In this document: positions 3,385 through 63,128 of the stretch, piece by piece
Layout of the letters: each line of letters begins with the position of its first letter
Numbering within the stretch: position 1 is the stretch's first letter
Assembly: GCA_947476065.1 (NCBI GenBank)
Contig: CANJPG010000003.1
Span: 1-64,000, forward strand
Length of the DNA: 64,000 nt
From: Fidelibacterota bacterium
Lineage (GTDB): Bacteria; Pseudomonadota; Alphaproteobacteria; Rhodospirillales; Rhodospirillaceae
Reading direction: 5' to 3'
Position numbers and translations under genes: made by a program
The notes under the pieces: generated by a model
Database searches by the model: none
What the model was told of the DNA's origin: nothing
The model's input: the letters and a program-made list of their open reading frames with translations, nothing else

Positions 3385-3855
3385 TTATTGGCGGATCGAG
3401 GCCTGCGGGAACTGGCTCTTGGCCCAGTCGATGATGGCGCGGCTGTCCATGGCGCCGGCGGTTTGGGCGATCAGGTGACCCTGGCCGGTCAGTAGCAAGG
3501 TCGGCACGCTTTGAATGCCGAAGCGGCGCGCGGTTTCCGGGGCCTCGTCGAGATTGAGTTTGAGCAGGCGGGCGCGGGGCTCGAGAAGTTCCGCCGCCCG
3601 CTCGAACATCGGGCCCATCATGCGGCAGGGGCCGCACCAGGGCGCCCACACGTCGGTTAACACGGGGATGGTGTTGGCCTGCATATGGCGGGCAAAGCCG
3701 GCTTCGTCGACGGTGAGGGGCTTTCCGGAAAACAGCAGCGCACCGCAGGCGCCGCACTTGGGGCCCTCAACTAAACGGTGCGTCGCCACGCGATTGATCT
3801 TGCTGCAGGCAGGACAGACAATGTGTTCTGCGTCGTTATGTTTTGTCGTGCTCAT
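3385..3855 (-). CDS. trxC: Thioredoxin 2 (TrxC)
   Basis: A 156-residue thioredoxin with an N-terminal zinc ribbon, the mark of TrxC. Cys pairs CPAC (residues 14-17) and CGAC (34-37) form the zinc site, and the redox-active WCGPC lies at 73-77 in a standard thioredoxin fold. TrxC is a cytoplasmic protein disulfide reductase usually tied to oxidative stress. The cis-proline loop (SVPTL) is intact. It lies just downstream of, and on the same strand as, the SUMF1-fold gene, and converges with the flavin reductase. Confidence 0.94.
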   Translation of the reverse strand: MSTTKHNDAEHIVCPACSKINRVATHRLVEGPKCGACGALLFSGKPLTVDEAGFARHMQANTIPVLTDVWAPWCGPCRMMGPMFERAAELLEPRARLLKLNLDEAPETARRFGIQSVPTLLLTGQGHLIAQTAGAMDSRAIIDWAKSQFPQASIRQ

Positions 3856-3873
3856 GACGGCGATATGGTGTCC

Positions 3874-4713
3874 CTAGTCGGCTCTGGCAATCCTGAAGCC
3901 GATAAATTCACCGTGGTCGTTGGGCGTATAGGCGTCTCTAAAGGCTGGCCGGATGCGTACCGGCATGCTGGCCCAGGAGCCGCCTTTCATGATCCGCAAC
4001 TGACAGTCGGGTGTGATCCGCGCGCTGCCGTCGACGGGCCCGGTGGCGGGGTTTTCGTCCCAGCAATCCTCGACCCATTCCCAAAGGTTGCCCGACAGGT
4101 CCTGCAGGCCGAAGGCATTGGCCGGAAAGCTGCCGGCGGGCGAACTGATTTCCCATTGGTCGGTGCCGCTGACGAAACCGCCGCAGCACTCATCGGTGCC
4201 ATAGTTGGCATAAGAGTGACTGGCCTTGTCGCCCCAGGCATAGGTGGTCGCCGCGCCGGCGCGTGCGCCGAACTCCCATTCCGCCTCCGAGAGCATTCGA
4301 TATTTCTTGCCGGTCTTGGCGCTCATCCATTTCGCATAAGCTTGGGCATCATCCCAGTCGACATTGATCACCGGCAAGTTGCCGCGCCCGCGGCCTTCGT
4401 CGGCGGGACGACGTCCGCCGCAGCCGCCGTCGGCGACGCAAGCATCCCATTCGGCAAAGGTGATCTCGGTCTTGGCGATGGCGAGGGGGTAGGAAATATC
4501 GACCCTGCGTAACGGTCCTTCATTGGCCGAGCGGCCCATCTCGGTGTCGGGCGAACCCATCCAGAAGCTTTGGCGCGGCATCACCACCATGACCGGGCAT
4601 TCGGCACAGTCTTTGAATTCGGCGCCGGGCTTCGGCATGGAGGAGGCGGCCTGTGCTATCGAAGACAGCAGTAGCGTCGCAATGATGATCAGCAGATTTT
4701 TGAATATTTGCAT
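3874..4713 (-). CDS. Secreted SUMF1/FGE-fold protein
   Basis: A 279-residue protein with a Sec-type signal peptide (about residues 1-22, ending AQA) followed by a formylglycine-generating-enzyme sulfatase domain (SUMF1 fold). Family motifs include WMGSPDTE, LSEAEWEFGARAG, LSGNLWEWVEDCW and the terminal IGFRIARAD. The KGGSW segment, where authentic FGE enzymes carry their copper-binding cysteines, has no Cys here, and no sulfatase gene is nearby. It is therefore more likely a binding or scaffold protein in the periplasm than a sulfatase activator. Other cysteines (CAECP, CGGR, DECCGG) may form disulfides. The function is open. Confidence 0.85.
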   Translation of the reverse strand: MQIFKNLLIIIATLLLSSIAQAASSMPKPGAEFKDCAECPVMVVMPRQSFWMGSPDTEMGRSANEGPLRRVDISYPLAIAKTEITFAEWDACVADGGCGGRRPADEGRGRGNLPVINVDWDDAQAYAKWMSAKTGKKYRMLSEAEWEFGARAGAATTYAWGDKASHSYANYGTDECCGGFVSGTDQWEISSPAGSFPANAFGLQDLSGNLWEWVEDCWDENPATGPVDGSARITPDCQLRIMKGGSWASMPVRIRPAFRDAYTPNDHGEFIGFRIARAD

Positions 4714-11762: not shown

Positions 11763-12803
11763 ATGACCGCAGCCCCACTCGCCGCCATCTTCGGGATGGC
11801 CGGCCCCAAGCTGACCGAGGCCGAGCGGGCCTTCTTTAAATCCAGCCGTCCCCTGGGCTATATCCTCTTCGCGCGAAACATTGAGAATCCATCGCAAGTT
11901 ATTGCTTTAGTGAATGATTTACGGTCACTGGATTCTCTTCATGATGTCATGATCCTGATCGACCAGGAGGGCGGGCGGGTGCAGCGGCTGAAGCCGCCTC
12001 ACTGGCGCCATGCGCCGACCATGGACGAGTTCGGCCAGCTTTATGGGCGCAATTCCACCAAGGCCAACGAGGCCCTCAGGCTCAATAACCAAATGATCGG
12101 CGACGAGCTGGCGGCCTTGGGCATCGACGTGGACTGCGCCCCCTGCATGGACGTGCCGGTTCCCGGCGCCCACGACGTCATCGGCGATCGCGCCTTATCC
12201 CGTGACCCGGCCGTCGTCGCCGCCATGTCGCCCGCAGCTTGCGAGGGGCTCCTGGATGCGGGCGTGCTGCCTGTGATCAAGCATATCCCTGGCCATGGAC
12301 GGGCGGGGGCGGATAGCCACAAGGAACTGCCGGTAGTCTCCGACGACTTGGCCACGCTGCGGACTTCGGATTTTGCGCCGTTCAAGGCCCTTTGCGCGAC
12401 GCCGCTGCAGGACGCCTGCCTGGCCATGACCGCCCACGTGGTCTACCGCGCCATTGATTCCCAGCGTCCAGCCACCACATCCAAGTCGGTCATCGCCGAC
12501 ATCATTCGCGGCGAAATTGGATTTAAAGGGCTGCTGATGAGCGACGACCTAGGCATGAAGGCCCTCGACGGGCCCTTCGACGCCCGCGCCGCGGCTTCCC
12601 TGGAGGCCGGCTGCGATGTGGTGCTCCACTGCGAAGGCGTCATGGCGGAAATGGAAGCGGTGGCCCGCGGCTGCGGCCCCTTGGGCACGAACGGGCTGCG
12701 GGCGCTTGAAGCAACTTCGGTTTTTCGCCGTAATCCGCGCAAAGCGCCGGCCAGCGCCGCCTCTGCCCAAGTGGCGGTGCTGAACGCGCTCCGTCATGGA
12801 TAG
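11763..12803 (+). CDS. nagZ: Beta-N-acetylhexosaminidase NagZ
   Basis: A 346-residue GH3 enzyme that removes N-acetylglucosamine from anhydromuropeptides during cytoplasmic peptidoglycan recycling. The NagZ signature KHIPGHGRAGADSHKELP carries the His/Asp acid-base pair on its mobile loop, and the nucleophile Asp sits in LLMSDDLGMKAL. FARNIE and LIDQEGGRVQRL match the N-terminal barrel. It follows the SPOR gene by 5 bp and overlaps the start of the M50 protease by 8 bp, indicating tight coupling. Confidence 0.95.
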   Translation: MTAAPLAAIFGMAGPKLTEAERAFFKSSRPLGYILFARNIENPSQVIALVNDLRSLDSLHDVMILIDQEGGRVQRLKPPHWRHAPTMDEFGQLYGRNSTKANEALRLNNQMIGDELAALGIDVDCAPCMDVPVPGAHDVIGDRALSRDPAVVAAMSPAACEGLLDAGVLPVIKHIPGHGRAGADSHKELPVVSDDLATLRTSDFAPFKALCATPLQDACLAMTAHVVYRAIDSQRPATTSKSVIADIIRGEIGFKGLLMSDDLGMKALDGPFDARAAASLEAGCDVVLHCEGVMAEMEAVARGCGPLGTNGLRALEATSVFRRNPRKAPASAASAQVAVLNALRHG

Positions 12804-21121: not shown

Positions 21122-22774
21122 CTATATTGAGAGTGTCTCGCCGTTTTTGTCAAGCTCATCGGCGGCGGTGAGCACCTCATTGGCTGCGGCGGTCGACGAG
21201 CGCGCGACTGCAGAGACGGTGCCGACGTTGTCCGTCACTTGCGCTGTGCCCTGGGCGGCCTGCGCTACGCTGCGTGCTATCTCACCCGTGGCGGCGTTTT
21301 GTTCCTCCACCGCGGCCGCAATGTTCGTCGAAATCTCACTGACCTGATCGACTGTTTGCGATATCGACAGGATGGTTTCAGCCGACTGCCGGGAAGCGCG
21401 CTGAATTTCCTCGATTTGCGCCTTGATGTCGTCAGTCGCTTTTGCAGTTTGTGCGGCAAGGGTTTTGACTTCGCCGGCGACAACGGCAAAACCTTTGCCG
21501 GCTTCGCCTGCGCGAGCGGCCTCGATGGTTGCATTCAGTGCGAGCAGATTGGTTTGTCCGGCGATATCATTAATCAAATTGACGACGGTGCCGATCTTCG
21601 CGGCGGCGGCTTCCAGTCCGCGAACGGCCCGCGCTGCGGCTCCGGCTTCGGACACGGCCTTTCCGATGATCTCCTTGGAATCCGTGACACGATGATTGAT
21701 TTCGTGGAATGATGCCGAGAGTTCTTCGGTTGCTGCCGCCACGGTCTGAACGTTTTGCGTCGTCAGTTCGGCCGCCGATGCAACCGAGTTCGCCTGCTGT
21801 TGGGTTTCTTCGGATGATTCCGCCATCGCTTGGGCGCTCACCTTCATCGCTTTCGCCGCAGCGGCGACATTTCTGACCAGTTGGCCCACGTTGCTCTCAA
21901 AGTCATCGGCCATGCCGAGGATGGCGTTTTTTCGTTCGGTATCGGCCTCACGTTTGATCTTTTCCTGTTCAATGCCCATGGTGATGATCTTTTGGCTGTT
22001 CTGCCTGAAGACATCGAGTGCGGCTGCCATTTCACCGATTTCATCCCGTCGGTGGGCGCCGGGAATTTGAACGCGCAGATCGCCCGCGGACAACTGTTCC
22101 ATGGCCGTGCTTACGTGGGAAAGCGGGCGAACGAGGCCTGCGATGGCACCCACGGCGATGGCCCCTATCAATGCCAGCATCAAGGCCGACACGCTCCAAA
22201 TCACAGTCGTCAAAGTTCCGTTGTGACTTGCCGCGTACAGTTCCGTCTCCTTGGTAACCTTATCCGCGCGGCTCACCATCTGATCAACGACGGCGCGATG
22301 CTTTTCATACGCGGTCACGAGCTTTCCGTAGGCCACTTCAGCCTGTTTGAGATCGTTGCGAGCGAGTGCGGGAAGGAATTCCTTTTCCACCTCCGCGAAA
22401 AACTGCTGCGCAAAGACATCGGAATCGCTAACGAGTTGCCTTTTTAAACCGGCATCAATGTCCTGTGCGCTCCAGTAGTCGTGGCGGTCCTGATAATCCT
22501 TATGCAGCTGCGCCAGCCGTTCGCGGTGTTTGTCGAGGTTTTCCGGATGTGATAGCGCCAGCGTGCTTTCAAGGTATGCCTCGATGATGTAGGCCGGCGG
22601 CGGGAGAATATCTGCGGTAAGATCCTTCATCGCGACGATGCGCTCATACACCGGGCCTCCCACCTGCAGCTCCTGCAGGGCGTACATCGACGTTCCGGCA
22701 GATGCGAGGTAGCCCGCGATGACAACGAAGTTAAGCGCCACGGCCATGGTTGAAATCTTGAGATTGCCGAACAT
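21122..22774 (-). CDS. Methyl-accepting chemotaxis protein
   Basis: A 550-residue chemoreceptor. An N-terminal membrane helix (about 10-30), a periplasmic four-helix-type sensor of about 150 residues, a second membrane helix (about 190-212), a HAMP domain, and a cytoplasmic signalling hairpin with the conserved tip [19 protein letters not shown] are visible. The tip should dock CheA/CheW. No che genes are in the window, so it feeds a remote pathway. The sensor domain gives no clue to the ligand. It is transcribed towards the LysM/M23 gene. Confidence 0.93.
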
Positions 22775-23053: not shown

Positions 23054-24424
23054 TTAGAACGCCAGCCAGGCAAACAGGAACAGCGTATTGTTGTCCGAGG
23101 CATTGCGTCCGGAGCCGTCGTAATTCAGCTTGGCGCCGTTGAACTTCGTGTAGCCAGTGTATTGCAGCCCTAGCCGCAGGTTGGCCCATGGGGCCAGCCA
23201 GGAGTCTGCCTTGCCGAAGGGCGTATAGGTGGCTTCGACAATGTATCCTGAGCTGTTCGGCCGCTGAGTCCTGCTGCCGCTAATGGGATCGGCCGCGAAG
23301 GTAACGGTGTCCACGCTGCCCCACGAGGTGAAGTAGCCGCCGGTCAGGCCATAGGTGCTGTCGAAGTAGTAGGCCACGTTCGATTTGAACGTATTGAGCT
23401 TATTCGACGTATTGTTGGACAGACCCAGGGCTTCGCTTGCCGTCAGATGCTGGGATTCGCGGATGAACGTTCCGTTTGCGGTGATCGTCGAGCGCTCATC
23501 AATATCAAACTAATAGGAAAGATCGGCGCCGAGGTCCCGCAGATGATCGGTGCCCTCACTTTTGTCGCGGCCGGGATAGACGTGGGCGTCGAGACCGAAG
23601 ACACCAAGGGCGAAGTATTGGCTGCCGACTGTCTGCTGCAGCGAGGCGCGTGCGTAAGGTGCGGCGCCGTGAATCCGACTTTCATCGCTGGGGTTGATGC
23701 CTAACGTCGACTGGGCGGGCCGAGGCTGGGTGGCGTAGGCGCCGCCTTCGAGATAGAGAAAGTCGTCCCACATGCTGTATGCGGTCAGGCCGACGACCTG
23801 CTGTGCCAGGCCGCCGTCGATCAGCGTCGAAGCGCCAGGTGTCGGCGCAAACCCGGAGCTTTTGAAAGGATGACTCCAGGCCGGAGTCGTATTCCAAAGG
23901 TCTTGAACCGTGGGGTTGTTGTTCAGCGACACGCCATAGACGAGCGACTTTCCGCCGATCGAGCCCTGATCAGCGTATCGGATGTCGACGTTGTCGAGCC
24001 CAAACTTGCGCTCTATGCCGTCATAGGTGGCCTGAATGAAGGCCCCCAGCTTTGGCAGGATACGTCCGGCAAAGAAGACGCTGGTCTCGTCCACCGCCGC
24101 ATTGTTGTTGTCGCCGAAGTGCGTTGCCGCGCCGCCCGCCTGGTCCTTCTTGGTATTGGTGAACGAGCTGATGATCATGCCGGCCAGCGGCAGCGTATCC
24201 TGTTTGGGATCGCCCCAGACGTATCCATTGAGTTTGAATTGCCGCCCGAACTCCGTCAGGCGTGGGCCAAATCCGCCGACGTGACACGCCGTGCAGGGAC
24301 TGCCGGTTTGCTGGGCGTAGCTAGGAAGTGCGGCGGCTGGAGTGCTTGTCATGAGGTTCAAGGCGAGTATGACAGCGACAGTCAACGAGGCGAGCGCGCC
24401 TCGACTTAAGTGATGTACGAACAT
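23054..24424 (-). pseudogene. Cyc2-like fused monohaem cytochrome-porin, interrupted by an in-frame amber codon
   Basis: The frame is open for 457 codons except for one TAG at 23510-23512, so conventional gene calls see a 304-residue upstream piece and a ~107-residue downstream piece. The N-terminus has a signal peptide, then SYAQQTGSPCTACHVGGFGP and LTEFGRQFKLNGY: one CxxCH haem site in the setting typical of Cyc2-type fused cytochrome-porins. The rest has alternating, aromatic-rich strands and ends in Phe (LFLFAWLAF), as outer-membrane beta-barrels do. Cyc2 relatives move electrons across the outer membrane, in some species from Fe(II). The amber sits at LSY*FDIDERS and a single base change from CAG would restore it. 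Nonsense mutation, suppression or sequencing error are all possible. Confidence 0.72.
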
Positions 24425-24592
24425 AGAGCCCCTTTAGAAAATACGCGCGACGACCTTGTCAGCTATCGTCGATGCGTGTGGTAAGACGCGCGCGCTTACT
24501 AGCACGCGTGTGGACGACCAAATTGGTCTGCATCAATTGTTCGTGTGTTCTGACAGTCACGTAATCGAGCGGCCGCGTTTATGAGCGGCGTG

Positions 24593-24717: not shown

Positions 24718-24742
24718 AAAAAACGAGCCCTTAGGCTTTTTT
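24718..24742 (-). terminator. Intrinsic terminator overlapping the stop of the response regulator
   Basis: On the minus strand an A-run, AGCC, a 4-base loop, GGCT and a run of six T form a compact terminator spanning the response-regulator stop codon. The A-run can pair with the T-run and lengthen the stem. It should end transcription before the cytochrome-porin promoter region. Confidence 0.6.
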
Positions 24743-25150
24743 GGCCTCATCGATGCGACCTGCGGTCAGGCGCTTCACATGCAGCAGCAGGTCGTCGTAG
24801 GAATAGGGCTTGGGCAGGAACGTGCCGCCGTCGGCGAGAAAGCCGGGCAGGTCGGCGACGTCGACAAAACCCGACGTGACGATGACGGCGACCTCGGGAC
24901 AAGTCTTGCGGATCCACGCGGCCAGGCCGAAGCCGTTCATCTCGCCCGGCATGCTGACATCGGTGAGCATGATGTCGAATTGCTCGCCGGCGGCGACCAA
25001 CGCCTGAACTTCGCGGGCATTGGCGGCCTCGAGAATGCGAAAGGAAAACTCGCGCAGAAACTCTGCCGCGGACAGGCGGATCATAATTTCGTCTTCGACG
25101 ATCAGGACAGTCGCAGTTTCCTTAGGTGGTGCGGTTGTCACTTCGCTCAC
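24731..25150 (-). CDS. Single-domain response regulator (CheY-like receiver)
   Basis: A 139-residue stand-alone receiver domain. The acidic pair is in VEDE (residues 18-21), the phosphoacceptor Asp is D64 in LTDVSMPG, the switch Thr/Ser lies in VTSGFVD, and the conserved Lys is K113 in LPKPYSYDD. There is no output domain, so it acts by protein contact. The KPYSYDDL ending resembles FixJ/PAS-kinase-associated receivers. No histidine kinase is adjacent. The neighbouring chemoreceptor and cytochrome-porin are possible but unproven partners. Confidence 0.9.
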   Translation of the reverse strand: MSEVTTAPPKETATVLIVEDEIMIRLSAAEFLREFSFRILEAANAREVQALVAAGEQFDIMLTDVSMPGEMNGFGLAAWIRKTCPEVAVIVTSGFVDVADLPGFLADGGTFLPKPYSYDDLLLHVKRLTAGRIDEAKKA

Positions 25151-29462: not shown

Positions 29463-29819
29463 ATGCTGATTTCAGCGGCCTATGCGGCCGATGCCGGCGC
29501 GATGTCGGGCCAGGGCTTGATGCAGTTCGCCCCGCTCGTTCTGATCTTTATCGTCTTTTACTTCTTGCTCATCCGCCCGCAGCAGAAAAAGCTGAAGGAT
29601 CACAGAGCGATGCTGGAGGCGGTCCGCCGCGGTGACCGGGTCGTGACCAACGGCGGCATCGTCGGTCTGGTGACCAAGGTGGTCGAAAACGACCGCGAAC
29701 TCACCGTCGAGATCGCCGAAGGTGTGCGCGTGAAAGTCATGCGCGACATGATCTCGAGCGTGCTCGCCAAGACCGAACCGGTCTCCGACAAGGCCGAAAA
29801 AACCGACGAGAAGAAATAG
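29463..29819 (+). CDS. yajC: Preprotein translocase accessory subunit YajC
   Basis: YajC, 118 residues, is a single-pass inner-membrane protein that joins SecDF. The membrane helix (about 23-40, APLVLIFIVFYFLLIRPQQ) and the conserved RPQQKKLKDH and GDRVVTNGGIVGLV are present. The ATG has a good AAGGAG site. It heads the yajC-secD-secF operon, with secD following after 48 bp. Confidence 0.96.
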   Translation: MLISAAYAADAGAMSGQGLMQFAPLVLIFIVFYFLLIRPQQKKLKDHRAMLEAVRRGDRVVTNGGIVGLVTKVVENDRELTVEIAEGVRVKVMRDMISSVLAKTEPVSDKAEKTDEKK

Positions 29820-29867: not shown

Positions 29868-31421
29868 ATGCAGCAGTTCAGCGTCTCCAAGATGGTCATG
29901 GTCTTCGCCGTGATTTTGGCGTCGATATTCTTCGCCCTGCCGAACATGATCCCGGCCGAGACGCGCAAGAGCCTGCCGTCGTGGTGGAAGCCCATGAACC
30001 TGGGCCTCGACCTGCGCGGCGGCTCCTACCTGCTGCTGGAAGCCGATACCTCGGCGCTGCTGAAGGAGCAGCTGGCTGATATCGAGGAAACCTCCCGCTC
30101 GGCGCTGCGCGACGTCAAGATCGCATACCGCACCATCCGTTCCGCCGATGACAGCGTATTCGTGACCGTCAACAATGCCACTGACGTGGAAGCCGCGCGC
30201 AAGGCCATCGCGGCCGTGACGCCGGGTATGGAAATTGACGTCCAGGGCGAAGACCGCGTCCACATCGGCGTGCCGGAGCGCCTGCGCCGTGAACGCCAGA
30301 CGGCGGCCCTGGCCCAGTCCTTGGAAATCGTGCGCCGCCGCATCGACGAATTCGGCACCACCGAGCCCAACATCCAGCGCCAGGGCAACGACCGCATTCG
30401 CGTGGAATTGCCGGGCGTCGAGAACCCCGAGCGCGTGAAAACGCTGCTGGGCCAGACCGCCAAGATGAACTTCCACCTGCTTGAGCCCAATGTCTCGGGC
30501 CTGGATGCGCGCGATCTGCCGGCCGGCACGATGCTGTTGCAGGGGTCGGGCGAACTCTCCGGCCAGACATTTGTCGTGCGCCGGCGCGTGGAAGTCAGCG
30601 GCGAACGCCTGATTGACTCACAGCCCTCGTTCCAGGACGGCAAGGCCGTCGTCAACTTCCGCTTCGACACCGCCGGCGGCAAACGCTTCGGTCAGGTCAC
30701 CTCGGCCAACGTCGGCCAGAACCTTGCCATTGTGCTGGACAACAAAGTCATCAGCGCGCCGCGCCTCTTGGGCCCTATCGTCGGCGGCAGCGGTATCATC
30801 ACAGGCGGCTTCACCACGCAGACTGCCAACGATCTGGCGCTGTTGCTGCGCGCGGGCGCCTTGCCCGTGCCGCTGGTGGTGCTGGAAGAACGCACCATCG
30901 GCCCCGGCCTCGGCGCTGACTCTATCGCTGCCGGCGCCACGGCGGCCCTCGTGGGCGGCGGGCTGGTGGTGGTGTTCATGATCATCGCCTATCACACCTT
31001 CGGCCTGTTCGCCGTGTTCGGCCAGATCTTCCACATGCTGACGCTGTTCGCCTTCCTCAGCCTCGTCGGCGGCACCTTGACGCTGCCGGGCATCGCCGGC
31101 GTCGTGCTGTCGCTCGGCATCGCGGTGGACGCCAACGTGCTGATTTACGAGCGCATGCGCGAGGAATTCCAATCGGGAAAGTCGCTGGTCAATTCGCTGA
31201 CCTCGGGATTCCAGAACGCCTTCGCGACGATTTTTGACTCCAACCTCACCACCTTCATCGCCGCCGCCATCCTGTACTTCCTGGGCGCGGGGCCGGTGAA
31301 GGGCTTTGCGGTGACTCTGGCCGTCGGCATCGCCACCTCAATGTTCTCGGCGGTGATGATCACGCGGATGCAGGTGTGGATGTGGTACCGCGCCGCCAAG
31401 CGCACCACTTTGCCCGTTTAA
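29868..31421 (+). CDS. secD: Protein translocase subunit SecD
   Basis: SecD, 517 residues, works with SecF as a proton-motive-force-driven RND-type motor that pulls proteins across the inner membrane after SecA. The N-terminal membrane helix, periplasmic P1 region (LGLDLRGGSYLLLEAD at its start; VRRRIDEFGTTEPNIQ within), and the C-terminal five-helix domain (SLGIAVDANVLIYERMREE) are in the expected order. secF follows after 15 bp. Confidence 0.97.
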   Translation: MQQFSVSKMVMVFAVILASIFFALPNMIPAETRKSLPSWWKPMNLGLDLRGGSYLLLEADTSALLKEQLADIEETSRSALRDVKIAYRTIRSADDSVFVTVNNATDVEAARKAIAAVTPGMEIDVQGEDRVHIGVPERLRRERQTAALAQSLEIVRRRIDEFGTTEPNIQRQGNDRIRVELPGVENPERVKTLLGQTAKMNFHLLEPNVSGLDARDLPAGTMLLQGSGELSGQTFVVRRRVEVSGERLIDSQPSFQDGKAVVNFRFDTAGGKRFGQVTSANVGQNLAIVLDNKVISAPRLLGPIVGGSGIITGGFTTQTANDLALLLRAGALPVPLVVLEERTIGPGLGADSIAAGATAALVGGGLVVVFMIIAYHTFGLFAVFGQIFHMLTLFAFLSLVGGTLTLPGIAGVVLSLGIAVDANVLIYERMREEFQSGKSLVNSLTSGFQNAFATIFDSNLTTFIAAAILYFLGAGPVKGFAVTLAVGIATSMFSAVMITRMQVWMWYRAAKRTTLPV

Positions 31422-31436
31422 CGGAGGATATTCCCC

Positions 31437-32396
31437 ATGCAGCCCATCCTTCGGTATATGCCGCACGAGTTTAAGTGGGATGTCGTCGGCACCCGCTTCA
31501 TCTGGTACGTGCTGACTGCGATCCTGATAGTGGTGTCGTTGGCCTCCATCACCACCAAGGGCTTTAATTTCGGTATCGATTTCGCCGGCGGCATTCTGCT
31601 GGAAGCCCGCTCCGAGCAGGTTGTCGACCTCGGCAAGCTGCGCGGCGATTTGAATCACCTGGGCGTGGGCGAAGTCAACATCACCACCTTCGGCGAGACC
31701 GGCCGTGACATCATGATCCGCGTACCGCAGCAAGAAGGCGGCGATCAGGCGCAGAACGTCGCCCTCAAGAAGGTCCAGGAGAGCATGGGTGCGGGCTACG
31801 AGATCCGCCGTACCGAAGTTGTCGGCCCGAAGGTCGGCGCCGAGCTGATTATCAGCGGCGCGCTTGCCGTTGCCTTGGCGGTGACCGCCATCGCCATCTA
31901 CGTCTGGTTCCGTTTCGAATGGCAGTTCGCGCTGGGGGCTTGTCTCGCGCTGTGCAGCGACGTCATCACCACGCTCGGGGTCTTTTCATTGTTCGAGATG
32001 AACTTCGACCTGACCACGGTGGCGGCGGTTCTGACCATCGCCGGCTACTCGGTCAACGATTCCATCGTCGTCTATGACCGCGTGCGCGAAATGCTGCGCA
32101 AGTACAAAAAAATGCCGTTGCCCGAATTGCTCAACCTGTCGGTCAACCGCGTGCTGCCGCGAACCCTCTTGACGGTGTTCACCGTGTTCCTGACGGTCGT
32201 GGCGCTGCTGGTGTTCGGCGGCGAGACCCTGCGCGGGTTCTCCATCGCCATGCTCTGGGGCCTTTTCGTCGGCACCTTCTCGAGCATCCGCGTCGGCATG
32301 CCGGTGCTGCTGTACCTCGACCTGCGCCGCGACGATTTCGGCATTTCGCCGAACGCCACGCCTGACTTCAGCAGCAAAGCTAAAACCACGGCCTAA
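31437..32396 (+). CDS. secF: Protein translocase subunit SecF
   Basis: SecF, 319 residues, is the partner of SecD. Landmarks are FNFGIDFAGGILLEAR near the N-terminus and the RND-type membrane block with AGYSVNDSIVVYDRVRE, including the conserved Asp residues of the proton path. It ends the yajC-secD-secF set; the Mth938-domain gene starts 18 bp later and is probably co-transcribed. Confidence 0.97.
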   Translation: MQPILRYMPHEFKWDVVGTRFIWYVLTAILIVVSLASITTKGFNFGIDFAGGILLEARSEQVVDLGKLRGDLNHLGVGEVNITTFGETGRDIMIRVPQQEGGDQAQNVALKKVQESMGAGYEIRRTEVVGPKVGAELIISGALAVALAVTAIAIYVWFRFEWQFALGACLALCSDVITTLGVFSLFEMNFDLTTVAAVLTIAGYSVNDSIVVYDRVREMLRKYKKMPLPELLNLSVNRVLPRTLLTVFTVFLTVVALLVFGGETLRGFSIAMLWGLFVGTFSSIRVGMPVLLYLDLRRDDFGISPNATPDFSSKAKTTA

Positions 32397-34456: not shown

Positions 34457-35845
34457 CTACTCCGCCGCAAGCGGTGCCACACCCAACCACTTGTCAATAT
34501 CCACCAGGGCACGCACGGCTAGGGCTTTCTTACGTTCGCGGCCTCTGATCGGCTTTCCCTTGCCGTCGCGGGCATCGACTTCGGGAAACAGACCGAAGTT
34601 GACGTTCATTGGTTGGAAATCGGGGCGCTGGAATGTCGTGGCATCGGCGCCGCCGGTGATGTGACCGAGGATGGCGCCCAGCGCCGTGGTCGGCGGTGGT
34701 GGCGCTTGCACGGTGCCGCGTTTCTCGGCGGCGGCAAAGCGCCCGGCCAATAATCCCACGGCGGCACTTTCGACATAGCCTTCGCAGCCGGTGATCTGAC
34801 CGGCAAAGCGCAGGCGCGGCATGGCTTTCAATCGCAGCGTTGGATCCAGCAGCTTGGGCGAATTGATGAAGGTGTTGCGGTGAATACCGCCCAAGCGCGC
34901 GAACTCGGCGTTCTCTAGGCCCGGGATCATGCGGAACACGTCGGTCTGGGCCCCGTGTTTCAGCTTGGTCTGGAAGCCGACCATGTTGAACAGTGTTCCG
35001 AGCGCATTGTCCTGGCGCAGCTGCACAACGGCATGGGGCCGTGAATTGGTGCGCGGATCGCGCAGGCCGATGGGCTTCATGGGGCCGTAGGCCAGGGTCT
35101 CGACGCCGCGTTCGGCCATCACTTCGATGGGTAGGCAGCCTTCGAAGTAGGGTGTGTCTTTTTCCCAAGCCTTGAATTCGGTTTTCTCGGCGGCGATCAG
35201 GGCAGCGATAAAGCCTTCGTATTGCGCCTTATCCATGGGGCAGTTGATGTAGTCCGCGCCGCCGCCTTCCACCTCCGCGCCCTTGTCGTAGCGCGATTGG
35301 AACCAGGCGATGTCCATGTTGACGGACTCGCGATAGACGATTGGGGCGATGGCGTCGAAGAAAGCCAACGAGTCTTCGCCCGTGAGTCCGCGCACCGCGT
35401 CGCTGAGCGCCGGTGACGTCAGGGGGCCCGTGGCGATAATTACCGAGTCCCAGGTTTCCGGCGGCAGGCCGGCGACTTCGCTGCGCTCGATGGTGATGTT
35501 GGGGTGGGCTATGAGTGCGGCTTCGACGGCCGCCGAAAAGCCGTCGCGGTCCACGGCCAGGGCAGAGCCGGCGGGCACCCGGTGCAGGTCGGCCTTGGCC
35601 AGGATCAGGGAGCCTGCCCGGCGCATTTCGGCATGCAGCAGGCCGACGGCGTTGTAGTCGGCGTCATCGGAGCGGAAGGAATTGGAGCATACGAGTTCCG
35701 CCAGGTTGGCGGTCTGATGGGCCGCCGTGCCGCGGACAGGGCGCATTTCGTGAATGACGGCGGGCAAGCCGGCCTCGGCGATCTGCCAGGCGGCCTCGCT
35801 GCCGGCCAAGCCGCCGCCGATGATATGGATGGGGGTCTGTGTCAT
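34457..35845 (-). CDS. trmFO: Methylenetetrahydrofolate-tRNA-(uracil-5-)-methyltransferase TrmFO
   Basis: A 462-residue flavoenzyme that makes 5-methyluridine at position 54 of tRNA, using methylene-tetrahydrofolate as carbon donor. The N-terminal FAD motif is [17 protein letters not shown], followed by the family-specific [14 protein letters not shown] and [11 protein letters not shown]. Cys residues in the YINCPMDK and [11 protein letters not shown] regions agree with the catalytic set. Length is normal. It converges with the NDUFAF6-like gene. Confidence 0.95.
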
Positions 35846-46310: not shown

Positions 46311-49229
46311 TTACGCCCGCTTCTTCGTTTTCACTGCCGCTTTCAATCGATCCTTCAAAAACTGCCCTGTATAGCTTTCCTTCACCTGGGCCACGTCCTC
46401 GGGAGTCCCCGTCGCGACAATGCGGCCGCCGCCGCTGCCGCCTTCGGGGCCCAGGTCGATGATCCAGTCGGCGGTCTTGATGACTTCGAGGTTGTGCTCG
46501 ATGACCACCATCGTATTGCCCTGGTTGACCAGGGTGTGCAGGACTTCGAGCAGCTTGCGCACGTCCTCGAAATGCAGGCCGGTGGTGGGCTCGTCCAATA
46601 TATAGAGCGTGCGGCCGGTGGCGCGTTTGCTGAGTTCCTTCGCAAGCTTCACACGTTGTGCTTCGCCGCCCGACAGCGTCGTGGCCTGTTGGCCCAGGTG
46701 GATGTAGCCGAGGCCCACCTGTTTCAGCAGTTCCATCTTCTCTCGGATCGAGGGCACGGCCTTGAAGAAGTCCACGCCTTCCTCGACGGTCATCTCGAGC
46801 ACGTCGGCGATGCTTTTGCCTTTGAAATGAACCTCGAGCGTTTCGCGGTTATAGCGCCGGCCTTTGCAGACGTCGCAGGTGACATACACATCAGGCAGGA
46901 AGTGCATCTCGATCTTGATCAAGCCGTCGCCCTGGCAGGCTTCGCACCGCCCGCCCTTGACGTTGAAGCTGAAGCGGCCCGGCGCATAGCCGCGCGCTTT
47001 GGCTTCGGGTAATTCGGCGAACCATTCGCGGATCGGCGTGAAGGCCCCGGTATAGGTGACCGGGTTCGAGCGCGGCGTGCGGCCGATGGGCGACTGGTCG
47101 ATGTCGATGACCTTGTCGAGCTGATTGACACCTTCAATCTTGTCGTGGGGCCCCGGAATATCACGCGAGCCATAGAGGTGTTTGGCGAGGCCCTTGTAGA
47201 GCGTCTCCAGCACCAGCGACGATTTTCCGCCGCCGGAAACGCCCGTCACGCAGGTCATGGTGCCCAGAGGAATATCGACGCTGACGTTCTTGAGGTTGTT
47301 GGCCTTTGCCCCCTTGATCGACAGCACCTTGCCGTTGCCCTTGCGGCGCTCGGTCGGCACGATCACTTCGCGCGTGCCGTTGAGATAGGCGGCGGTGAGG
47401 CTGTCCTTGGACTTGAGAATGTCGTCGAGCGACCCAGCGGCGATAACATTTCCGCCGTGCACACCGGCCCCCGGGCCCATGTCCACAATATAATCAGCGG
47501 CGCGGATGGCGTCTTCGTCGTGTTCCACCACCAGCACCGTATTGCCGATGTCGCGGAGCCGTCTCAACGTATCCAAGAGGCGGTTGTTGTCGCGCTGATG
47601 CAGACCGATCGAAGGTTCGTCCAGCACATAGAGCACGCCGGTCAACCCCGAGCCGATCTGCGAGGCCAGGCGTATGCGCTGGCTTTCGCCGCCGGACAAT
47701 GTGCCGGAATTTCGCGATAGCGTCAGGTAATCGAGTCCCACGTTGTTGAGGAAGTGCAGGCGGTCGTCGATCTCGCGCAAAATGCGGCGCGCGATTTCCA
47801 ATTGTTTGGCAGTGATGGACTTGGGCAGCGCCGCGAACCAGGCGGCAGCGTCGGAGATGCTCAACTCCGAAACATCGGCGATGTTCTTCTTGTTGATCTT
47901 GACCGCAAGGGCCTCTGGCTTCAGGCGCTGGCCGCAGCAGACTTCGCAGGGCTGGCTGGTCTGATATTTCTCCAACTCCTCGCGCATCCAGGCGGACTCG
48001 GTTTCCCGCCAGCGGCGCTGCAGGTTGTTGAGCACGCCTTCAAAGGGCTTGCGGGTTTCGTATTTTCGGACGTCGTCGCTGAACTTGATGGTGATCTCGT
48101 CGTCGCCGGTGCCGTTAAGCACGGCACTGCGCACCTTGGCGGGCAGCTTCTTCCACGGCATGTCGATCTTGGCGCCGTAATGGGCCAGCACGCCTTTGAG
48201 CGCCTGGAGGTAATAGGGTGAAGGCACCGACGAGGCGGCCCAGGGCGCCACGGCGCCGTCTTCGATGCTGAGATTGTCGTCGGGCACCACTAGCACCGGA
48301 TCGAACAGCATCTTCACGCCCAGGCCGTCGCAGGCCGGACAGGCGCCGAAGGGGTTGTTGAAGGAGAACAGCCGCGGCTCGATCTCATCGATGGTGAAGC
48401 CGGAGACTGGGCAGGCGAACTTGGCCGAGAACACCGTGCGGCCGGCATCGCCCTTCGCATCAGCGTTTTCAGTGAAGGCGATGCCCTCCGCCAATGCCAG
48501 CGCGGCTTCGAAGGATTCCGCTAGGCGGCTTTGAATGCCGTCGCGCACGACGATGCGGTCCACGACCACTTCGATGTCGTGCTTGAGCTTCTTGTTGATT
48601 GTCGGCACGTCGGCGATTTCGTACAGCGTGCCGTCGAGCTTCACGCGCTGGAAGCCCTTCTTCTGCAGCTCCTGCAGTTCCTTTTTGTATTCACCCTTGC
48701 GGCCGCGGGCGATGGGAGCCAGCAGGTAAAGGCGCGTGCCTTCCGGCATGGCCATGACGCGGTCGACCATCTGCGAGACGGTCTGGGCCTCGATGGGTAG
48801 TCCGGTGGCGGGCGAATAAGGCACACCGACGCGGGCCCACAGCAGGCGCATGTAGTCGTGGATCTCCGTGACGGTGCCCACCGTCGAGCGCGGGTTGCGG
48901 CTGGTGGTCTTCTGCTCGATGGAAATGGCCGGCGACAGGCCCTCGATGGAATCCACATCGGGCTTTTGCATCAGCTCTAGGAACTGGCGGGCATAGGCCG
49001 AGAGGGATTCCACGTAACGCCGCTGGCCCTCGGCATAGATCGTGTCGAAGGCGAGGGAGGACTTGCCCGAACCCGACAGGCCCGTGACCACCACCAGCTT
49101 GTCGCGGGGTAGATCGACGTTGACGGAGCGCAGGTTGTGCTCGCGGGCGCCGCGCACGCGGATTTCGTGGTGGCGTTGAGACGAGGGGCCAGAAGCGGAT
49201 GAAGAAGGAGACTTGCTATTGGGGGGCAT
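46311..49229 (-). CDS. uvrA: Excinuclease ABC subunit A
   Basis: UvrA, 972 residues, recognises DNA damage for nucleotide excision repair. Two ABC ATPase modules are present: Walker [15 protein letters not shown] near residue 53 and [14 protein letters not shown] in the second half, with signature motifs [14 protein letters not shown] and [14 protein letters not shown]. Zinc-site cysteines appear in [23 protein letters not shown] and CDVCKG. Length is normal. A LexA-like box lies just upstream of the start, and ssb is divergent. Confidence 0.98.
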
Positions 49230-62330: not shown

Positions 62331-63128
62331 TCAGCCATCCAGGAAGGACGCGGCACGGCGGCGCGCTTTGCGGCGCGAAGGTGCCGGTGCTGCATTCGCC
62401 GTGGCGAGGGCGTGCAGGGCCAAGTCGAGTTCGTCGTCGTCCATTTCCTCAGGCTCGGCCCAATAGAGGCTGAAGTTGGCCTGGAAGGATTTCCACCATT
62501 GCTGAATGCCAGTGGCCAAGGGTTCGCCCAGCAGGTGGCGGAAACCCTTATCCCGCATCAGGTCCTGGGTCGCTTCAATCTTGTTGATGCCGATCTGCTG
62601 CAGGATGGTTTTGACGACCATGTCATAGGGCGTCTTCATCAGATCAACCCCGGTGCCGAGGTCGATGCGCCCGAGCATCAGGAACACGAGGTCCGAGACG
62701 ACGCGGTCCTGGCGCCCGGCGGCAGCGTCCACCTGTGCGCCGATTTCCCCGAGAAGCTCGGAGGCTTCGGCGGGCGGATATAGGCCGCGGATGCGGGCGG
62801 TCTCGAGGGCTACGACGCCGGCAAAGTAATAATCGTCGATGGGGTGGATATCGAACAGCATGCGCCGTTCATCTATGGTCAGGGAATGCTCGGCCAACCC
62901 ATCGGTAAAGACCTTGCTCCAGGCCGGATAGGTGCGAGCCGCAACCGATGTCATCGCGCCCAGAAAGTGGCTGACCGCCTCGCGCGCTTCGGCGGCGTTC
63001 TCGGGAACGTCGCTCCCGAACATGCGGCGCAGCTTGGCCATGGTACGGCGCACCGTGGCGGCCATACCCTTTGGTTTCTGCGATCCTAACGCCGGCTTTT
63101 TTACGCCGGCGCTCAAACTATCAGCCAA
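62331..63128 (-). CDS. Conserved hypothetical protein (unrecognised), 265 residues
   Basis: A soluble, mainly helical protein. After a basic N-terminus (KKPALGSQKPKGMAATVRRT), it has DVPENAAEAREAVSHFLG, HPIDDYYFAGVVALETAR, LMLGRIDLGTGVDLMKTPYD and an acidic stretch (EPEEMDDDELD) before a basic Arg-rich tail. No enzyme motif, membrane segment or signal is visible. A divergent response regulator begins 300 bp away and may be functionally linked. I do not recognise the family. Confidence 0.6.
   Translation of the reverse strand: MADSLSAGVKKPALGSQKPKGMAATVRRTMAKLRRMFGSDVPENAAEAREAVSHFLGAMTSVAARTYPAWSKVFTDGLAEHSLTIDERRMLFDIHPIDDYYFAGVVALETARIRGLYPPAEASELLGEIGAQVDAAAGRQDRVVSDLVFLMLGRIDLGTGVDLMKTPYDMVVKTILQQIGINKIEATQDLMRDKGFRHLLGEPLATGIQQWWKSFQANFSLYWAEPEEMDDDELDLALHALATANAAPAPSRRKARRRAASFLDG

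Follow-up and report, generated by a model that had tools for sequence, protein, structure and literature searches.

A Cyc2-like cytochrome-porin gene with one in-frame amber codon and a conserved distal part

Analysis of a 64,000-nucleotide stretch of DNA, here called the window, revealed a Cyc2-like fused cytochrome-porin gene that carries one in-frame TAG and is the sole copy found in the genome. We consider it probable that a single C-to-T nonsense change hit this gene very recently and made it a null allele. The allele is most likely a tidy but ordinary recent nonsense change, a miscalled base being less likely.

The locus and its reading frame

Read on the minus strand from 24424 to 23054, the frame comprised ATG plus 303 sense codons, the TAG, 151 further sense codons and a stop, giving a product of 304 residues under the standard code and of 456 residues on read-through. 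The parts of the locus are as follows.

23054..24424, minus strand: whole Cyc2-like cytochrome-porin gene, a 457-codon frame with one in-frame TAG; the homologue match spans the TAG
24429..24435, minus strand: ribosome-binding-site-like AAAGGGG, 4 bases upstream of the ATG, seen by eye
24332..24424, minus strand: signal-peptide-like segment, about residues 1-31, with a hydrophobic core and AAA before LP, seen by eye
24281..24295, minus strand: CTACH, residues 44-48, the sole CxxCH in the frame, with ALPSYAQQT before it and VGGFGPRL after it
23510..24424, minus strand: standard-code frame of 304 residues, with 10 of the 16 predicted strands and the C-terminal end ...DLGADLSY
23510..23512, minus strand (cta on the plus strand): in-frame TAG, codon 305, in predicted strand 10 (293-307) and in a Gln column of the family
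23057..23509, minus strand: distal 151 codons, with predicted strands 11-16 and a C-terminal Phe; conserved
21122..22774, minus strand: 3'-side neighbour, a methyl-accepting chemotaxis protein (HAMP, MCPsignal)
24731..25150, minus strand: 5'-side neighbour, a single-domain response regulator

The preliminary description of this DNA had reported a frame of 457 codons interrupted once, by TAG at 23510-23512, and our reading agreed with it exactly, adding the strand, which had not been named. The single CxxCH, its Cyc2-style context and the C-terminal Phe listed there were all present in the translation. The distal 151 codons were checked for a further stop or a shift of frame, and neither was found. 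The coding character was the same on the two sides of the TAG, as had also been claimed: the codon-usage score was 0.188 before and 0.305 after it, GC3 was 0.73 before and 0.77 after, and the similarity of one protein family crossed the TAG without a frame change. Among the window's 73 ORFs (a mechanical set of at least 70 aa with little overlap), no CxxCH was found besides that of the cytochrome-porin gene, and promoter and terminator scans gave nothing beyond shuffles.

Homologues and predicted fold

The read-through protein, used as query, found 38 loci in the genome collection. Thirty-seven of them were translated, L040 (a 74-residue match) being left out; 36 of the 37 were open across the whole match, and L031 shifted frame at query residue 170/171. 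Alignment A1 comprised the window protein and the 36 open homologues (37 rows). Because an intact homologue from the same genus matched read-through residues 10-456 at E 1.1e-231, the similarity is more than a chance match; the profile match of the window protein itself (E 2.5e-183) is inflated because the profile includes that protein. The nearest homologue (G017:C16, equivalent to L003/L004/L079) was 73-74% identical over the full length and had no stop. The window and G017 copies paired in a quick tree of 57 rows (SH-aLRT 99; end branches 0.22 and 0.17), and G059, from the same family, joined this pair with support 97. Within 20 kb around the G017 copy, neither blastn (E<=1e-5) nor tblastn of the window ORFs (E<=1e-8) gave another window match. 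No Pfam or NCBIfam model matched the window protein at E<=1, the 37 family rows gave single-row matches only at E<=0.1 (E 0.017 or worse), and a PDB sequence-profile search reached a best E of 0.056. The record titles of L004, L006 and L040 (Candidatus Marinimicrobia, Candidatus Kuenenia and Klebsiella pneumoniae) clash with their sequence kinship, and the labelling of these metagenome bins seems unreliable.

AlphaFold2, run on the read-through protein with alignment A1, predicted 16 strands (pLDDT 85.9, pTM 0.83), with a helix at residues 8-25 in the signal-peptide-like segment and a haem segment (about residues 34-79) ahead of the first strand. The best VIA matches were OmpC-type porins (Z 22.5, 3.6 A over 303; top rows tied within 1), and Foldseek gave 214 matches at E<=0.001, OprP and OprO among them (2o4v, E 2.2e-8; 4rjw, E 7.8e-7). 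The structure prediction that the preliminary description had proposed as a check on the whole frame thus returned a 16-strand barrel with porin matches in both searches. In a second AlphaFold job, the 304-residue product kept 10 strands (pLDDT 78.5, pTM 0.74), and this model gave 0 Foldseek matches at E<=0.001. Its top VIA scores were tied at about 9, with OmpG (Z 8.5, 5.4 A over 185), FapF (Z 9.0, 5.2 A over 178) and OmpF1 (Z 9.1, 4.1 A over 185, chain 1-220) among the matches, the OmpF-type porins being matched in their first part only.

Cyc2 features of the window copy

According to the available part of PMC8406198, Cyc2 has a single CXXCH near the N-terminus with AXPXFAR[Q/K][T/Y] just before it and PXL 4 residues after it, a signal peptide, at least 365 residues, a 16-strand outer-membrane barrel behind the haem segment, a top match to a FeGenie Cyc2 HMM with a place in cluster 1, 2 or 3, and Fe(II) oxidation; the same part names OprP and OprO as structures for Cyc2. 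The window copy has the single N-terminal CXXCH (CTACH, residues 44-48), and its ALPSYAQQT fits 5 of the 7 fixed motif positions, departing from published Cyc2 by Y for F and Q for R. The strict motif was found in 22 of the 37 A1 rows, the nearest homologue among them. PRL stands 5 residues after the CxxCH in the window copy against the 4 of the paper, whose counting convention is uncertain. At 304 residues the standard-code product is shorter than the published length, which the 456 residues of the read-through product exceed, and the predicted structure has 16 strands only if the TAG is read through. The PxL spacing also splits the family, with five residues in 15/37 rows, three in 21/37 and no PxL found in 1/37.

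Canonical Cyc2 was sought in the genomes of eight relatives, one of them titled Gallionellaceae (E<=10), and none was identified. The sole further match in the Gallionellaceae-titled genome covered 55 positions (E 0.18), a second full-length match to the window protein's family was present in three of the eight (G074, G075 and G079), and in G075 an ORF for a di-haem cytochrome was also hit weakly, at E 0.028. The consulted part of PMC10654088 describes a similarity network that ties Acidithiobacillus Cyc2 to proteins of Burkholderiales, Acidiphilium and others, and that of PMC8406198 regards cluster 3 homologues as the least certain in function and says that distant homologues should be tested. 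Sequence comparison and the predicted fold support a Cyc2-like fused cytochrome-porin, the identity first proposed for this gene, through homologues with a Cyc2-type motif and a predicted 16-strand barrel behind the haem segment. With 2 of the 7 fixed motif positions differing in the window copy, strict Cyc2 membership, and iron oxidation with it, would go beyond what this copy supports.

Conservation on either side of the TAG

At codon 305, 28 of the other 36 A1 rows carry Q, 4 carry E and 4 carry D, so that none of these relatives has a stop there, and the nearest homologue has CAG at the TAG position. The Gln column and this CAG support the change from CAG to TAG that had been suggested as the simplest explanation, and the comparison with close relatives found the same-genus homologue intact, with CAG at codon 305.

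Measured against the nearest homologue, the residue was the same at 202 of 270 mature codons before the TAG and at 115 of 151 after it (Fisher p 0.81), corresponding to 75% and 76% identity. dN was 0.166 before and 0.159 after, dS was 2.6 before (near saturation) and 1.25 after, and there were 0 gap columns after the TAG. In tallies that count all departures, shared ones included, at columns at least 80% conserved in 35 more distant rows, the window copy departed at 5/66 before the TAG (F36Y, R38Q, F185H, W258A and A261S) and at 0/30 after it, and the nearest relative at 1 before and 3 after; at columns at least 60% conserved, the window copy departed at 18/97 before and 6/53 after, as against 12 and 10 for the relative. 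When L005=L006 was used to polarise the changes, the window copy showed 15 over 217 sites before the TAG and 3 over 123 after it, and the relative 6 and 8 (Fisher p 0.027, two-by-two). At the columns at least 80% conserved, departures that lie only before the TAG are the opposite of the decay of a dead 3' part, and they may reflect divergence or relaxed constraint older than the TAG. The absence of drift in the distal part points to one of four readings of the TAG, namely a very recent change, a polymorphism, a miscall or read-through; since this part is conserved like the proximal one and holds no second lesion, a very recent change or a miscall is indicated.

Distribution of the family and other broken copies

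A search of the genome with the family profile at E<=1 gave one match. Counting this genome, matches were present in 2/19 genus, 4/73 family and 18/317 order genomes (20 order places), so the gene is accessory and lineages do without it. In the class sample, 15/385 genomes matched at 18 places, some of them weak or partial; for both the order and the class, scoring was limited to the first few candidates of each genome. An in-frame stop was found at 2/20 places in the order search, both TAG, namely in the window and in L104 of G182, and the only other in-frame stop in the class search sat in a weak 60-position match (E 9.8e-4).

L104 (G182:C23:13298-14668), the one other full-length copy seen to carry a TAG, has it once in frame, at index 415 of the open frame, and G182 holds a second cytochrome-porin copy without a stop besides it. 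L098 (NC_015179.1, Acidiphilium multivorum pACMV3) is a cytochrome-porin copy split by a frame change; it is annotated as two hypothetical proteins and adjoins an ISAs1-family transposase gene. The 'pseudogene' passages of PMC5371394, PMC2621215 and PMC10427800 contained none on Cyc2, and other parts of the literature may hold earlier reports of a broken cyc2.

The genome gave 25 Cytochrom_C matches, 23 of them over the cut-off, and possible electron partners therefore exist. A further CxxCH ORF lay within 1.5 kb at 13/36 loci; there was none in the window or beside the G017 copy. L008-L011, L015, L023, L025, L035, L041 and L097-L100 have a mono- or di-haem cytochrome gene downstream on the same strand, within 21 bases of the cytochrome-porin gene at the nine L008-L041 loci, and this cytochrome is a likely electron partner.

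TAG as a terminator and quality of the sequence

RF1 was present (494 bits against a 423-bit cut-off). TAG ended 20 of the 51 coding-like window ORFs of at least 100 aa (mechanical ORFs, with the cytochrome-porin frame counted), including the complete FGE-sulfatase (3874-4713), GidA-family (34457-35845) and GH3 (11763-12803) genes. The proposed check for an amber suppressor found no CUA anticodon among the 34 tRNA matches in the genome, in a census that is incomplete because Phe, Tyr, Trp and Ile tRNAs are absent from it; ARAGORN called 33 anticodons, none of them CTA, and the 34th, at a contig end, read CAT by eye. The genome is rated 99.76% complete, yet these four tRNAs were missed, and they were probably lost at contig gaps.

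The assembly is a draft of 158 contigs. Elsewhere in the genome, neither the 46 ABC_tran nor the 25 Cytochrom_C matched stretches had an internal stop, in a tally that reads the matched stretch only and in which some genes give two matches. Eight window ORFs, the cytochrome-porin gene included, had a coding-like in-frame extension past the stop, and in 6 of the 7 others this extension was another gene with its own Pfam family. These six were rejected as broken genes: 3388-4713 (minus strand), considered as an amber-interrupted gene, is the FGE-sulfatase gene (3874-4713, terminated by TAG) with a thioredoxin gene behind it in the same frame; the ORF at 29463 is YajC and then SecD, that at 29868 SecD and then SecF, that at 31437 SecF and then a DUF498 gene, that at 46311 UvrA and then a GST gene, and that at 62331 a part without a family and then an alpha/beta hydrolase. 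In the seventh, at 2833, an FMN reductase was followed by 36 codons without a match. As the extensions are separate genes or 36 matchless codons, no other window gene was seen to be broken by one stop, which argues against widespread stop-making errors but would leave room for a single one.

Discussion

The intact protein would be exported and, once in the periplasm, would have one c-type haem attached at CTACH, after which the BAM machine would insert it as a 16-strand outer-membrane barrel. Electrons would pass from a small extracellular donor, commonly guessed to be Fe2+, through the single haem to a periplasmic carrier. With the TAG acting as a stop, the product would end after strand 10 of 16 and lack the normal C-terminal strand; it would most likely be degraded, which makes the allele null. 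This account supposes that the gene was working until recently and that the TAG base is real. Other broken copies of the family, with another TAG (L104) and two frame changes, count in favour of a nonsense change, but there is no second lesion, and the lack of any sign of lost function in the DNA beyond the TAG counts against it, as do the departures at strongly conserved columns, which all precede the TAG.

An error in the consensus, or an allele carried by a minority strain, could also account for the TAG base. Were it an error of consensus or assembly, the organism would have a sense codon and an intact gene, as the draft state of the assembly, the fully conserved distal part and the single base that separates TAG from the homologue's codon would allow; however, the ABC_tran and Cytochrom_C stretches without internal stops (0/46 and 0/25) and the absence of another single-stop-broken gene in the window speak against it. 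Real nonsense alleles are moreover common in accessory genes, and we regard a miscall as unlikely, although it deserves serious consideration. Alternatively, a suppressor tRNA or leaky termination might read the TAG as Gln or another residue, so that full-length protein is made. The distal part is as conserved as the proximal one and the incomplete tRNA census was missing genes, which would suit read-through; but RF1, the ordinary genes that end in TAG, the lack of a CUA tRNA among the 34 found and the lack of a stop at codon 305 in any other copy seen (L104's TAG lies elsewhere) make recoding unlikely, and we give it very little weight.

It is more doubtful again that the 304-residue product works as a smaller, 10-strand cytochrome barrel. 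The strands that precede the TAG are even in number, so that with a standard porin topology the end would lie on the periplasmic side, the truncated model keeps its 10 strands, and the small closed barrels OmpG and FapF appear among its VIA matches with scores about those of OmpF-type porins. The end DLGADLSY also fits the beta-signal pattern given in the available part of PMC10945584 and is the only fit among 127 single-base stop routes at codons 35-455 (1/36 among transitions), but 1/127 is not a fair p value because the pattern was tested after the end was seen. On the other side, the strict form of the signal is ordinary at this internal strand (17/36 relatives), none of the 37 family rows has a C-terminus of the published pattern and 18/37 have one of a looser form, the truncated model has no Foldseek match at E<=0.001, OmpF-type porins are matched as an opened piece would be, and conservation of the distal DNA would be surprising in a gene whose product is the short form. 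The structural models thus suggest that the 304-residue product is probably non-functional. If the 10-strand reading were true, it would represent a one-step evolutionary change of barrel size; that the amber is such a step, from 16 to 10 strands, with BAM perhaps accepting the shorter barrel, seems to us the faintest prospect of those considered. Among the three fates offered in the preliminary description, loss is therefore the best supported; suppression is disfavoured by RF1, the TAG terminators and the lack of a CUA tRNA in the incomplete census, and a functional truncated barrel by the 10 of 16 strands and the 0 against 214 Foldseek matches.

A recent nonsense allele of this kind matters for surveys of Cyc2-type genes, in which a 304-residue ORF scores the organism as positive if length is unchecked and is missed if it is checked, the inference at stake being iron oxidation or extracellular electron transfer. 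With two TAGs and two frame changes among its broken copies, the family is a caution that a haem motif by itself does not testify to a working gene.

Comparison with known cytochrome-porins

The G017 homologue shares the CTACHVGGFGPRL segment with the window copy; it has the strict motif ALPSFARQT and no stop, whereas the window copy has ALPSYAQQT and the TAG. Plasmid-borne homologues in 9 records, with hosts that include Acidithiobacillus ferrooxidans YQ-N3, Acidiphilium, Caballeronia, Polymorphobacter and others, were 34-44% identical over 91-100% of the frame, and the Acidiphilium and A. ferrooxidans plasmid copies were 36% identical to the window protein. A c-type cytochrome gene lay downstream in 4/4 of the plasmid regions opened (of the 9), overlapping to 0.5 kb away; unlike these, the window gene has no c-type cytochrome gene downstream. 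Compared by published description with Mariprofundus PV-1 Cyc2, Acidithiobacillus Cyc2 and Leptospirillum Cyt572 (available part of PMC8406198), the window copy shares with Cyc2 a signal-like N-terminus, one CxxCH, an AxPx.A..QT-type context, PxL after the haem site and a predicted 16-strand barrel with OprP/OprO among its Foldseek matches, and it differs in the F-to-Y and R-to-Q changes in the motif, the PxL spacing of 5 and the premature TAG.
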